Assembly (NCBI RefSeq): GCF_028613635.1
Contig: NZ_JAQRMY010000003.1
Coordinates: 74,787-138,786, forward strand
Reading direction: 5' to 3'
DNA length: 64,000 bases
Origin: Devosia sp. ZB163
GTDB taxonomy: Bacteria; Pseudomonadota; Alphaproteobacteria; Rhizobiales; Devosiaceae
Below the pieces are notes generated by a model. It had not been told where the DNA came from. It saw nothing but the letters and a program-made list of their open reading frames with translations, and did not search any database. Every line of letters begins with the position of its first letter. Position 1 is the first letter of the stretch. Positions 18,329 through 29,872 of the stretch are shown here, piece by piece. A program made the position numbers and the translations under genes.

Positions 18329-18340
18329 CTAACATGTTAA
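18329..18340. promoter_or_regulatory. TAACATGTTA palindrome (site 1)
   Basis: CTAACATGTTAA lies in the gap between the TPR gene and the first GntR gene. The same 10-bp palindrome, within CTAACATGTTAG, overlaps the start of the second gntR gene at 28180-28191. Sharing by two loci with FCD-type GntR regulators suggests a common operator and cross-control of the RbsABC-type importer and the sugar-acid genes. Confidence 0.5.
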
Positions 18341-18382: not shown

Positions 18383-18414
18383 TTGTCATACCAGTTTCGG
18401 CCATTTCTATACCA
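18383..18414. promoter_or_regulatory. FCD/FadR-type operator candidate with a half-site repeat 21 bp on
   Basis: TTGTCATACCA (18383-18393) fits the loose FadR-subfamily pattern TnGTnnnACnA. ATACCAG recurs with a 21-bp offset (18388 and 18409), two helical turns apart, suggesting binding of two dimers on one face. It lies about 115-145 bp upstream of the GntR gene in AT-richer DNA. Assignment to that regulator is inference. Confidence 0.4.
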
Positions 18415-18528: not shown

Positions 18529-19272
18529 ATGTCGGCCAGGAGCAATGTCGTTCGTCTGGGTGAAGGAGATACGAGCGGGCGACCACCTGTCGGGGCGGTA
18601 CATCTTTCAGATTCCGCCGTTGAGACACTGGTCGGCCAGATCAAGTCACTGATCGACGCGCGTAACCTTGGGGTGGGCGATCCGCTGCCCTCGGAACGCG
18701 AGCTGGGCGAGACGTTCGCGTCGAGCCGCACCACGGTGCGCGAGGCGATGCGCATCCTCAAGGCGTATGGCGTGGTCGATGTCAGGCCCAAGGTCGGCGC
18801 GGTGATCATCGACCGGCGCATGGACGCCGTGTTCGACCTCTATTCGTTCAACACGCTCGAACTCAGCCGGCAGACCTATCTCGATACGCAGTTCTTCCGG
18901 GAACTGATCGAGGTCGGCTCGGCCGACCGGCTGATCGAGAACTTCACCACGGCCGACATTGTCGAGCTGCGCGAGATCAACGACGCGATGCGCGAGGAGG
19001 CGCACCTGCCGGCGGCGGCGCGACACGACTTCCATTTCCACCTCAAGCTGGTGGGCCTGCTGGGCAACAAGCAGGTGCTCGAGATCTACCGCATCATGCA
19101 GCCGGTGATGCTCAAGATCATGGAAACGGGCGTCGCCCGCATGAAGTCCAACGGCATCAATTTCGACGAGCATGGCGGCATCGTCGATGCGCTCGAGAGC
19201 CGCAACCGGCTCGCCTACCAGTATCGCATGAGCCAGCACCTCGAAGCCGGGCTCGCGCTGTTCAAGGAGTGA
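18529..19272 (+). CDS. GntR-family transcriptional regulator (FadR/FCD subfamily)
   Basis: 247 residues. An N-terminal winged helix-turn-helix is at about residues 28-90 (LPSERELGETFASSRTTVREAMRILKAYGVVDV). The C-terminal all-helical FCD ligand domain carries metal-site-like His residues (RHDFHFHLKL and the late H of MSQHLEAGL). Such regulators sense sugar acids, carboxylates or sugars. It directly precedes the RbsABC-type importer operon on the same strand and is the natural candidate for its control. Confidence 0.92.
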   Translation: MSARSNVVRLGEGDTSGRPPVGAVHLSDSAVETLVGQIKSLIDARNLGVGDPLPSERELGETFASSRTTVREAMRILKAYGVVDVRPKVGAVIIDRRMDAVFDLYSFNTLELSRQTYLDTQFFRELIEVGSADRLIENFTTADIVELREINDAMREEAHLPAAARHDFHFHLKLVGLLGNKQVLEIYRIMQPVMLKIMETGVARMKSNGINFDEHGGIVDALESRNRLAYQYRMSQHLEAGLALFKE

Positions 19273-25996: not shown

Positions 25997-26848
25997 TCAG
26001 GCCGCGTAGGCCTTGGTCTTCTGGGTCTGGTCGCCCAGGCCCTCGATGCCGAGCTTCATGGTCTGGCCCGGCTTCAGCCAGATCGGCTCGGGCTTCTGGC
26101 CCATGCCGACGCCCGGCGGGGTGCCGGTGGTGATGACGTCACCCGGCTGCAGGCTCATGAACTGGCTGAGATAGGCGACGATGTGCGCCACGCCGAAGAT
26201 CATGGTCTTGGTCGAGCCGTCCTGATAGCGGTGGCCGTCGACGTCGAGCCACATCTTGAGGTTCTGGACGTCGTTGACCTCGTCCTTGGTCACGAGCCAC
26301 GGGCCGATCGGGCCGAAGGTGTCGGCCGACTTGCCCTTGGTCCACTGGCCGCCGCGCTCGGTCTGGAAGTGGCGCTCGGAGAGGTCGTTCACGACGCAGT
26401 AGCCGGCGACGTAGTCCAGCGCGTCCTTCTCTTCGATGTAGCGGGCTTCCTTGCCGATCACCACGCCAAGCTCGACTTCCCAGTCGGGCTTGAGGGTGTT
26501 CTTGGGCAGGATCACGTCATCGTTCGGGCCGATGATGGCGCTGGTGGCCTTCATGAACAGGATCGGCTCGGCAGGGATGGCGGCGCCGGTCTCGGCGGCG
26601 TGGTCGGCGTAATTGAGGCCGATGCACATGAACTTGCCGACATTGCCGACGCAGGGGCCGATGCGCAGCGACTTGTCGAGCACGGGGAGCGTCGAAGCAT
26701 CCACGGCGCGGATCTTGGCGAGACCCTCGGGCGTGATCGCGGCGCCGGCGATGTCCGGAACGACAGAGGACAGGTCGCGATAGGTCCCGTCAGTGTGGAG
26801 GATGGCGGGCTTTTCAGAGCCCTTGGCGCCGACGCGCAGAAGTTTCAT
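25997..26848 (-). CDS. Fumarylacetoacetate hydrolase family protein (diketo-deoxy sugar acid hydrolase-like)
   Basis: 283 residues. The C-terminal FAH fold carries the metal ligands in DWEVELGVVIGKEA (Glu-x-Glu) and VVNDLSERHF (Asp), with the lid motif MCIGLNYADHAAE and the closing GDVITTGTPPGVG. The overall pattern (SADTFGPIGPWLVT) is that of 2,4-diketo-3-deoxy-L-fuconate hydrolase and ureidoglycolate lyase-like enzymes, which cleave or hydrolyse 2,4-diketo acids to pyruvate plus a second acid. It follows the fucU mutarotase gene in a leftward set. In the non-phosphorylative L-fucose or L-rhamnose route this would be the last step. Confidence 0.88.
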   Translation of the reverse strand: MKLLRVGAKGSEKPAILHTDGTYRDLSSVVPDIAGAAITPEGLAKIRAVDASTLPVLDKSLRIGPCVGNVGKFMCIGLNYADHAAETGAAIPAEPILFMKATSAIIGPNDDVILPKNTLKPDWEVELGVVIGKEARYIEEKDALDYVAGYCVVNDLSERHFQTERGGQWTKGKSADTFGPIGPWLVTKDEVNDVQNLKMWLDVDGHRYQDGSTKTMIFGVAHIVAYLSQFMSLQPGDVITTGTPPGVGMGQKPEPIWLKPGQTMKLGIEGLGDQTQKTKAYAA

Positions 26849-26959: not shown

Positions 26960-27391
26960 CTATTCGGGCCGCACGATGCCCTTCTTCAGCAGCACATTGC
27001 CGTAGAGGCGGCGTTCACCGGTCTGGATGACGGCAAAAGCACCGCGCACGCGCTCGTAGAAGGCGAAGCGCTCCAGCATCGAAAGCTGCATGTCGGGCTC
27101 GTGCTTCTTGATGAGCGTGTCGAACTCCTTGTGGGTCTGCTCCCGTTTCTGGGGGGCACCCACGACCTCCATGCCGAAGGCCTGATCGTCGACGAAGGTG
27201 TCGAGCGGCATCAGCGTCAGCACGGCGTCGAGCACGTCGGTGGCGGTGATGCCGTCGAGGCGCACCAGCTGCGGGCCGGCGCTGTCGGCCGGGTAGTTCG
27301 CGTCGACGATGGCGATCTCGTCCCCGTGCCCCATGGCACGCAGGATGTAGAGCAGATCGGGGCCCAGGATCGGGGGTATCCCCTTGAGCAT
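26960..27391 (-). CDS. fucU: RbsD/FucU-family sugar mutarotase
   Basis: 143 residues from the ATG at 27389-27391, which has GGGAGGA upstream. Active-site regions are RAMGHGDEIAIVDANYP near the N-terminus and LYGNVLLKKGIVRPE at the end, as in L-fucose mutarotase. The enzyme speeds interconversion of the alpha and beta anomers of a monosaccharide, here most likely L-fucose or a close relative. It starts 31 bp after the end of the GntR gene on the same strand and precedes the FAH-family hydrolase gene. The RbsD (ribose) assignment is less likely by the C-terminal motif. Confidence 0.88.
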   Translation of the reverse strand: MLKGIPPILGPDLLYILRAMGHGDEIAIVDANYPADSAGPQLVRLDGITATDVLDAVLTLMPLDTFVDDQAFGMEVVGAPQKREQTHKEFDTLIKKHEPDMQLSMLERFAFYERVRGAFAVIQTGERRLYGNVLLKKGIVRPE

Positions 27392-27422: not shown

Positions 27423-28178
27423 TCAGCCGAACGGGAAGGCGGTGTAGCTGGGGTCGTCGTTGAGCAGGCCCCCATCGGCGAACAGCTCGGGGTGGGCGGC
27501 CGCAAACGTAATGAGCTCGGCCATGACGGAATCGATGTGGGCGCGCATGGCGCCCGAGGCGGCGGGCGCATCGCCGGCGACGATGCCGTCGAGGATCCTC
27601 TGGTGCTCGGCGAGGGTGACGCTCAGGCGGCGCGGCGTGAGGATGAGGCGGCGGGCCCGGTCGAGATTGGCGCGGGTGTTCTCGATCACGCCCTTCACCT
27701 TGGTGAAGCGCATGTCGCCGAAGATGATGTCGTGGAACTCGAGGTCGCGCTCGTGGAAGCCGTTCTGGTCGTCGATCTGCACGGCGGCGCGCTGGTAGCT
27801 GAGGTTGCGCTGCAGCGTATCCACCAGCTCCTCGGAGTGGTTGCCGGTGACGACGCGGACTGCTTCGGCCTCGAGCGCCTTGCGGATCAGCATGTATTCG
27901 AGCACGTCGGCGATGCGGACCAGCGACACGGTGGAGCCGCGCTGGGGCAGGATGTCGACGAGCCCTTCGGCCTGCAGCCGCGCCAGGGCCTCCGAGACGG
28001 GAAAGCGCGAGACGCCGAGCCGTTCGCAGATGGCGCCCTTGTCGAGCACCTCGCCGGGTTTCAGGTCGAGCTGCACGATCGCCTGACGCAGCGTGTCGGT
28101 GACGAAAACCGTCACGTTGCCGCGTGTTGGCGTTGCGGGCGTTGACAGAAATGAGTAGGGACTTGCCTCGGTCTTCAT
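27423..28178 (-). CDS. GntR-family transcriptional regulator (FCD subfamily), second copy
   Basis: 251 residues. The winged helix-turn-helix is at about residues 35-95 (LDKGAICERLGVSRFPVSEALARLQAEGLV). The FCD domain follows, with metal-site His/Asp residues in HERDLEFHDIIF and late H residues. It is divergent from the UxaA/GarD dehydratase gene and upstream of fucU and the FAH gene, so it sits at the centre of the sugar-acid block it probably controls. No ribosome-binding sequence precedes its ATG, and promoter geometry predicts a leaderless mRNA. Confidence 0.92.
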   Translation of the reverse strand: MKTEASPYSFLSTPATPTRGNVTVFVTDTLRQAIVQLDLKPGEVLDKGAICERLGVSRFPVSEALARLQAEGLVDILPQRGSTVSLVRIADVLEYMLIRKALEAEAVRVVTGNHSEELVDTLQRNLSYQRAAVQIDDQNGFHERDLEFHDIIFGDMRFTKVKGVIENTRANLDRARRLILTPRRLSVTLAEHQRILDGIVAGDAPAASGAMRAHIDSVMAELITFAAAHPELFADGGLLNDDPSYTAFPFG

Positions 28179-28213
28179 GCTAACATGTTAGTTGGACTGC
28201 CGGAGCAATTCAA
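28179..28213 (-). promoter_or_regulatory. Predicted leaderless gntR promoter with operator on the -10 (TAACATGTTA, site 2)
   Basis: Read on the minus strand: -35 TTGAAT (28208-28213), a 17-bp spacer, -10 TAACAT (28185-28190), then six bases before the ATG, which would place the transcription start at the A of the start codon. The -10 hexamer is the left part of the palindrome CTAACATGTTAG (28180-28191). A repressor bound there would block its own promoter. Confidence 0.6.
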
Positions 28214-28321: not shown

Positions 28322-29872
28322 ATGTCCGACGTCATGTCCCGCCCCGCAGCCAAGACCCTGCTCCTCAATTCCAGCGACAACGTCGCCGTGGCGCTCACCA
28401 ATCTCGACGTGGGCACCGAGACGCAGCAGGGCGTCACGACGGCCAAGCGTGTGCCCAAGGGCCACAAGTTCACGGTGCGCGCTGTCGCGGCCGGCGAGCC
28501 CATCGTCAAGTTCGGGCAGATCATCGGCTTTGCCAAGGACAACATCCCGCCGGGCGAGTGGGTGCACGAGCACAACGTCACCATCGGCGAGGACCACGGC
28601 GCGTTCGAGCGCGACTATGCCTTCGGCGAGGGCGTGGTGCCGGTCAACTTCTTCCCCGAGGCCGAGCAGGCGACGTTCGAGGGCTTCCGGCGCGCCAACG
28701 GGCAGGTGGGCACGCGCAACTATGTCGGCATCCTCACCTCGGTGAACTGCTCGACCACCGTCGCCGGCTTCATCGCCCGCGAGATCGAGCGCTCGGGCAT
28801 CCTCGACGACTACCCCAATATCGATGGCATCGTGGCGCTGAAGCAGGCCAATGGCTGCGTCATCGACTATCGCGGTGTGATCTTCGACACGCTCAAGAAG
28901 ACCACCTGGGGCTATGCGACCAATCCCAACATGGGCGGCGTGGTAATGGTCGGGCTGGGCTGCGAGGGCTTCCAGATTCCGCGTCTCAAGGAGGCCTACG
29001 GGGTCACCGAGAACGAGACGTTCCGCACCATGACCATCCAGGAAGTGGGCGGCACCAGGAAGACCGTCGAGGCAGGCGTCGAGGCAGTGAAGGCGATGCT
29101 CCCCATCGTCAACCAGTCGCGGCGCACGACGCAGCCGGCGTCGGAACTGATGCTGGCGCTGCAGTGCGGCGGCTCGGACGGCTATTCGGGCATCACCGCC
29201 AATCCGGCGCTGGGCGTTGCGGCGGATATCCTCGTGCGTCACGGCGGCACGGCGATCCTCTCGGAAACGCCGGAGATCTACGGCGCCGAGCACCTGCTGA
29301 CGCGGCGCGCCAAGACGCGCGAGGTCGGAGAGAAGCTGATCGACATCATCCACTGGTGGGAAGACTACGCCGAGCGCAACAACATGGAGATGAACAACAA
29401 CCCATCTCCAGGCAACAAGCTCGGCGGTCTTACGACAATTCTCGAAAAATCCCTCGGCGCCGCGGCCAAGGGCGGGACGACTCCGCTCAACGCGGTGTAT
29501 CACTACGCCGATCCGGTGACGGAGAAGGGCTTCGTGTTCATGGATACGCCCGGCTATGACCCGGTATCCGCAACCGGCCAGGTGGCCGGCGGCGCGAACG
29601 TCCTCTGCTTCACGACGGGTCGCGGCTCGGCCTATGGCTGCAAGCCGACCCCGTCGATCAAGATCGCCACGAACTCGGACATCTATCACAAGATGATCGA
29701 CGACATGGACATCAACGGCGGCGAGGTCATCGAGGGTGGCTCGCTCGAGGCTAAGGGGCAGGAGATCTTCGACGAGATCCTCGCCGTCTCCTCCGGCAAG
29801 AAGACCAAGTCGGAACTGCTCGGCTACGGCGACAACGAGTTCGTGCCCTGGAACATCGGGGCGACGTTCTGA
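28322..29872 (+). CDS. UxaA/GarD-family sugar-acid dehydratase (altronate/galactarate dehydratase-like)
   Basis: About 516 residues. It has an N-terminal SAF domain (NVAVALTNLDVGTETQQG through GEWVHEHN) followed by the large catalytic domain. Landmarks include VNCSTTVAGFIA, VMVGLGCEGFQI, LALQCGGSDGYSGITANPALG, NNNPSPGNKLGGLTTILEKS and VLCFTTGRGSAYG. The family uses an iron or metal centre to dehydrate D-altronate, galactarate or related acids to 2-keto-3-deoxy acids. The ATG at 28322 has no good ribosome-binding sequence; a GTG at 28253 or an ATG at 28334 are alternatives. The stop overlaps the acylphosphatase start (TGATG). Confidence 0.9.
   Translation: MSDVMSRPAAKTLLLNSSDNVAVALTNLDVGTETQQGVTTAKRVPKGHKFTVRAVAAGEPIVKFGQIIGFAKDNIPPGEWVHEHNVTIGEDHGAFERDYAFGEGVVPVNFFPEAEQATFEGFRRANGQVGTRNYVGILTSVNCSTTVAGFIAREIERSGILDDYPNIDGIVALKQANGCVIDYRGVIFDTLKKTTWGYATNPNMGGVVMVGLGCEGFQIPRLKEAYGVTENETFRTMTIQEVGGTRKTVEAGVEAVKAMLPIVNQSRRTTQPASELMLALQCGGSDGYSGITANPALGVAADILVRHGGTAILSETPEIYGAEHLLTRRAKTREVGEKLIDIIHWWEDYAERNNMEMNNNPSPGNKLGGLTTILEKSLGAAAKGGTTPLNAVYHYADPVTEKGFVFMDTPGYDPVSATGQVAGGANVLCFTTGRGSAYGCKPTPSIKIATNSDIYHKMIDDMDINGGEVIEGGSLEAKGQEIFDEILAVSSGKKTKSELLGYGDNEFVPWNIGATF

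Follow-up and report, generated by a model that had tools for sequence, protein, structure and literature searches.

The closest described system is the acuR-acuI-dddL operon of Rhodobacter sphaeroides, whose transcript is reported to begin exactly at the AUG of acuR and to carry no Shine-Dalgarno (SD) sequence (PMC3017554). According to the same report, the acuR promoter (TTGATT, TATTAT) is overlapped by an inverted-repeat operator, a similar arrangement is found in other lineages, and translation of the leaderless acuR reaches about 7.5% of that of the following gene (PMC3017554). Leaderless repressor messages have also been reported for cI of phage lambda and for tetR of Tn1721 (PMC4681348, PMC3017554). 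The GntR-family regulator whiH of Streptomyces is described as having a leaderless message (PMC4681348, PMC3160421), and the C proteins of restriction-modification systems as autoregulators whose genes are leaderless and carry operators at their promoters (PMC4824078). Among Alphaproteobacteria, 171 leaderless genes have been reported in Sinorhizobium meliloti and 375 in Caulobacter crescentus (PMC3616915, PMC4117421).

Here we compare with these systems a gntR gene in a 64,000-nucleotide stretch of DNA from Devosia sp. ZB163, which we call the window and whose first letter is position 1. We consider it highly probable that this gene is a leaderless, negatively autoregulated sugar regulator of the FCD-GntR type, that its -10 element lies within its own operator, and that it heads a gntR-fucU-hydrolase run. 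The features concerned are the following.

27423..28178, minus strand: gntR, a 251-aa GntR-family regulator with an FCD domain (Pfam)
28176..28178, minus strand: start codon and predicted transcription start (A = 28178), from the geometry, an in-frame TAA and the SPYxFL N-terminus
28185..28190, minus strand: -10 element TAACAT, entirely within the palindrome, in 40/40 orthologues
28208..28213, minus strand: -35 element TTGAAT, with TTG at -35..-33 in 36/40 orthologues
28180..28191, no strand assigned: palindrome CTAACATGTTAG, put forward as the operator of the GntR protein, with 3 core copies in 4.59 Mb; further occurrences are at gntR starts and close to pathway genes
18329..18340, no strand assigned: second palindrome copy CTAACATGTTAA, which precedes a GntR gene and the operon of a sugar ABC transporter
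26960..27391, minus strand: fucU-type mutarotase gene, 31 bases downstream of gntR (Pfam RbsD_FucU, 139.5 bits; SD present)
25997..26848, minus strand: FAA-hydrolase family gene (NCBIfam NF053535, 427 bits, below the cut-off of 500)
28322..29872, plus strand: divergent UxaA/galactarate dehydratase family gene (Pfam GD_AH domains)

The gntR product matches PF00392 with 54.6 bits (cut-off 27) and PF07729 with 76.4 bits (cut-off 24.3), which places it in the FCD subfamily of the GntR family. On the minus strand, TTGAAT (28213-28208), a 17-base spacer (28207-28191), TAACAT (28190-28185), GTTAGC (28184-28179) and ATG (28178-28176) follow one another, just as the initial annotation had described a TTGAAT-N17-TAACAT ending six bases before the ATG. 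With the A of the ATG as +1, TTGAAT occupies -35..-30 and TAACAT -12..-7, and the latter is indeed part of the palindrome (28191-28180), as had been claimed. The codons 5' of the ATG, read in frame going upstream, are AGC, GTT, CAT and TAA. This TAA (28190-28188, inside the palindrome) therefore excludes a translation start further upstream, and a start further downstream is unlikely, since residues 6-11 (SPYxFL) are kept in the orthologues. From the in-frame stop and the conserved N-terminus, the start codon at 28178 is as good as certain. The region upstream of gntR contains no purine-rich ribosome-binding sequence.

As in the acuR operon, alphaproteobacterial catabolic genes would be headed by their own regulator, and an inverted-repeat candidate operator overlaps the promoter. 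The gene has the features typical of leaderless genes (a -10 at about -12..-7, a matched -35, no SD, an AUG start) together with the one typical of the AcuR kind, namely an inverted repeat over its own promoter that is conserved in homologues. By contrast, AcuR is described as a TetR-family protein with a 22-bp operator that has a 6-base gap (PMC3017554), whereas the regulator in the window is of the FCD-GntR type and its putative operator is an ungapped 12-bp palindrome containing the whole -10. Since the regulator is a GntR/FCD and not a TetR protein, the gene would work like acuR without being acuR. The start, the repression and the inducer were measured for AcuR according to the published account, whereas for gntR we infer all three. 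Lambda cI and the tetR of Tn1721 differ from gntR in belonging to other protein families and in lying on mobile elements. Both have operators at their own promoters. Unlike gntR, whiH is described as an actinobacterial gene with a developmental role, whose promoter is read by the sigma factor WhiG and not by one of the sigma-70 type. C proteins, again unlike gntR, are said to act by activation followed by repression via paired sites, and they belong to another protein family. Self-controlled leaderless repressors are thus an established kind, of which gntR would be a new and unusually well conserved example.

Singly, TTGAAT and TAACAT are weak, each agreeing with the E. coli consensus at 4/6 positions. 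The palindrome CTAACATGTTAG occurs exactly once in the window, and the copy at 18329-18340 has one mismatch. Allowing up to 2 mismatches, the window holds 2 matches against 0.33 expected. At least 2 such matches were reached in 7/100 shuffled windows, and therefore the palindrome alone is not decisive within the window. With weak hexamers and a non-decisive palindrome, the proof therefore lies in conservation. Candidate loci numbered 66, of which 51 were found by protein similarity, 14 by the palindrome pattern and 1 (L127) by its place. L115 was dropped (no gntR hit), rows that agreed in all of the first 300 coding bases were combined, and the rows of genus g16 (L128-L133) were kept out of the set, which comprised 40 distinct family orthologues. 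The 14 loci found by pattern are circular for the palindrome but not for the TTG.

Overall, TAACAT stood at -12..-7 in all 40 orthologues, and TTG stood at -35..-33 in 36 of them, whereas at other positions it was counted 0.9 times on average and 8 times at most. The base frequencies at -35..-33 were T 100%, T 90% and G 95%; two of the four rows without TTG read TGGACA. Column conservation was complete from -14 to -2, and the columns from -70 to -40 were near background, most of them below 0.4 bit. An SD-like match of 4 or more upstream of gntR was found in 0/40 orthologues, which bears out the initial annotation on the missing ribosome-binding sequence. Judged from the alignment, this profile is that of a sigma-70-type promoter with +1 at the start codon. 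The comparison confirms the TTGAAT/TAACAT/ATG arrangement, on sequence grounds, as real and well beyond chance. It also lends support to the leaderless reading proposed earlier: conservation peaks at -35..-33 and -14..-1, with neither an SD nor an alternative start codon.

Could the gntR mRNA instead start further upstream with an SD-less leader, the palindrome next to the ATG serving as a roadblock operator and its -10 likeness being secondary? Many genes here are SD-less (265/550 at the first ATG in the sample of the window's genome), and the single hexamers are just 4/6 to consensus. However, the region from -70 to -40 is without a conserved element, TTG appears at the sole right spacing in 36/40 orthologues, and a perfect TTGACA stands there in four rows from other families, so that we regard an upstream start as distinctly unlikely.

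The protein search alone gave 40 places, of which 32 carried the arrangement (L004-L033, L127 and L136, the last with one palindrome mismatch) and 8 did not (six in g16, G074, and a second place in G012). The six genomes of g16 (G033, G039, G044, G049, G054, G058), out of 37 orthologue genomes of the same family, have the regulator without the start palindrome or the arrangement, and therefore the arrangement can be lost or never existed there. Their regulators are at 40-49% identity, and L128-L133 retain a YxFL N-terminus. Named relatives with the arrangement, partly cultured, include Devosia and Arsenicitalea.

Beyond the family, the palindrome followed by NN and ATG was found in 38/397 genomes of the order. 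We read 32 matches at 30 loci, which are part of the places found in the order: 24 of the 32 open a frame of at least 180 codons, 23 of these start like FCD-GntR proteins, and 8 open no long frame. The palindrome start unit is common to six further families of the order (f22, f44, f5, f50, f41 and f21). TTGACA, a better -35 than that of the window, lies 16 bases before TAACAT in one f41 row, both f21 rows and one f50 row; TTGACT lies at the same distance in the other f41 row and both f44 rows. At a spacing of 16-18, the -35 scores 4/6 or better in all 17 other-family rows (anchors slid upstream: mean 2.1, maximum 8) and 5/6 or better in 7 of them (mean 0.39, maximum 3). These 17 rows include L101, a 187-aa frame that does not visibly start like GntR and is perhaps frameshifted. 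In a class-wide sample, the pattern occurred in 6/387 genomes. One is the genome of the window, three belong to f81, and in the other two the match opens no long frame. The three genomes of f81, a family of another order, have FCD-GntR-like genes with TTGCGT-N16-TAACAT. Globally, the palindrome containing the -10 is found in the window's family and seven others, i.e. eight families in two orders. A genome of f22 (G280; L144, L100) carries at least five palindromes of a longer type, (C)ATxCTAACATGTTAGTATG, with no long frame at that start.

The palindrome is rare. Its core TAACATGTTA occurs 3 times in the whole genome (4,587,172 bases), and a reversed control pattern of it gave 0 occurrences in the same sequence. 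Two of the copies lie in the sugar cluster of the window. The third lies before another sugar ABC transporter, adjoins a second fucU and is near a carbohydrate kinase; the transporter gene is more than 100 bases further on. By eye, this third copy (own genome C2, L034 6309-6360) lies between the two hexamers of a promoter-like TTGACT-N18-TACCAT and does not form a -10, and the same was seen at L073, about 1490-1530. An extra copy is present in the loci of 7/21 named relatives, in six of them directly before the hydrolase gene, and in relative L035 the palindrome is also found 220 bases before the same second GntR gene that it precedes in the window. In Devosia-type relatives, tandem palindromes exactly 19 bp apart were observed (L080 1501, 1520; L084 1501, 1520; G006 C14 15186, 15205, 15224). 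Such a distribution would be expected of the operator of a local sugar regulator. With a palindrome invariant in 40/40 gntR starts and recurring near catabolic or transport genes of a pathway of the same kind, the suggestion that the operator doubles as the -10 gains comparative support.

The usual operator site of FCD-GntR regulators is TNGTNNNACNA. The core TAACATGTTA does not fit this pattern, which is not a strict rule of membership. A sequence that does fit it by eye, TTGTCATACCA, lies at 18383-18393, upstream of the second FCD-GntR gene of the window (18529-19272). The recognition helix SRSPVAEA is identical in g16 and in the palindrome-bearing f21. The protein thus does not vary together with the palindrome there, and the covariation test was uninformative. 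Since the palindrome is unlike the usual type and the helix does not covary with it, binding of the palindrome by the gntR protein is something that we infer, from position and recurrence. The palindrome might instead be the operator of another regulator, such as the second FCD-GntR, which is preceded at about 190 bases by a copy of the palindrome, and gntR would then be controlled without being autoregulated; the absence of covariation would agree with this. Nevertheless, it is the start of this gntR that carries the palindrome in 40/40 rows and in eight families, the second GntR gene adjoins in the loci of only 1/21 named relatives (with short flanks), and that gene is itself preceded by a distinct, GntR-like sequence (18383-18393, by eye). 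Control by another regulator is therefore unlikely in our judgement, and we retain autoregulation by the gntR protein.

The genes gntR, fucU and the hydrolase gene keep a shared strand and order in relatives. The hydrolase belongs to the fumarylacetoacetate-hydrolase (FAA) family and is nearest to 2,4-didehydro-3-deoxy-L-rhamnonate hydrolase, by a match below the cut-off. Further off in the cluster are an SMP-30 lactonase, an aldehyde dehydrogenase and a sugar ABC transporter. From this gene content, gntR probably regulates a sugar catabolic cluster for L-fucose or a similar 6-deoxy sugar or sugar acid, and we take the cluster to resemble the fucose cluster of Campylobacter. The second palindrome before the hydrolase gene in some relatives was counted against co-transcription of gntR and the hydrolase gene.

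The uxaA gene is divergent from gntR in 20/20 relatives where it was found, at a varying distance, and is possibly under the same operator. The palindrome could thus serve mainly the promoter of uxaA, and its resemblance to a -10 on the gntR side would be a by-product of the symmetry, as a symmetric site gives TAACAT on both strands. We hold this to be highly improbable: the plus strand has GGGACT, a hexamer that lacks TTG, 17 bases ahead of TAACAT, and a fixed spacing with a conserved -35 is seen on the gntR side only. The idea that the early gntR codons hide a plus-strand -35 for uxaA was dropped, as the right spacing reads GGGACT.

In the mechanism that we propose for a leaderless, autorepressed gntR, the housekeeping sigma factor would read TTGAAT-N17-TAACAT and RNA would begin at the A of the ATG, so that the message would have neither a leader nor a ribosome-binding site. 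The regulator would act by repression rather than activation: a dimer on the palindrome would cover the -10 and exclude RNA polymerase from its own promoter, and with the -10 wholly inside the operator, the bound dimer would block that promoter. This bound state would probably also shut off the downstream mutarotase and hydrolase genes. An inducer, presumably an intermediate of the pathway, would loosen the dimer, and transcription would resume. The leaderless start would probably keep the repressor scarce, while the SD-bearing downstream genes would be well translated from the same derepressed message. In the named relatives, an SD was found in 0/21 for gntR, 21/21 for the hydrolase gene and 11/19 for fucU.

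Beside the promoter, the early codons of gntR show a bias (window 28146-28178, codons 1-11). The GC content of the eleven codons after the ATG is 0.47, compared with 0.63-0.65 in orthologues of the neighbouring genes, and 4% of the 634 genes in the sample of the window's genome are equally AT-rich in their early codons. The Ser codon 6 is AGT in 28/28 orthologues, compared with an AGT usage of 3.6% in the rest of these genes, and the Phe codon 10 is TTT in 40/40 family orthologues, compared with a TTT usage of 24%. A universal TTT for the N-terminal Phe was dropped as an idea; families f22 and f50 have both TTT and TTC. The predicted fold of the first 60 bases of gntR in the window (-9.9) was about as stable as that of shuffled sequences (-10.8) and does not strengthen the leaderless reading. 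The AT-rich, fixed early codons fit selection on a leaderless start.

A more tentative reading, which we consider possible but doubtful, is that a 16-base cassette CTAACATGTTAGCATG, combining operator, -10, discriminator, in-frame stop and leaderless start, has been kept through at least eight families and two orders by selection for leaderless translation of the repressor. Leaderless translation would then tie repressor output to transcription alone, below that of the enzymes of the same message, and the AT-rich first codons of the window's family (Ser AGT, Phe TTT) would be part of the start signal. A selected leaderless start that sets the level of the repressor has been proposed for acuR (PMC3017554).

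A search of the literature found no leaderless GntR gene of Alphaproteobacteria, and the palindrome motif was not found as a bacterial operator, as judged by titles and the starts of abstracts for part of the matches. The gene described here is a strongly supported prediction of a leaderless, autorepressed GntR gene with natural variants over eight families. These variants allow a direct test of whether the leaderless start is a selected setting of repressor level in alphaproteobacterial catabolic operons or an accident, and the palindrome is a candidate operator motif for reading out a sugar regulon.

A genome-wide comparison used 863 kb with 634 predicted genes and asked for a peak of TANNNT at the leaderless distance from the first ATGs. 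A choice of starts weighted by codon usage had missed the window's gntR at its expected offset, and first ATGs were substituted for it. The leaderless signal was weak and does not strengthen the reading of gntR: TANNNT lay at six bases in 5 of the 265 SD-less first ATGs, compared with a mean of 1.25 at other offsets, of which another one also reached 5. In the same genome (C3, joined-sample position 304015), a helix-turn-helix-like gene is preceded by TTGAAC-N16-TAGGGT, seven bases and the ATG, and is possibly leaderless.
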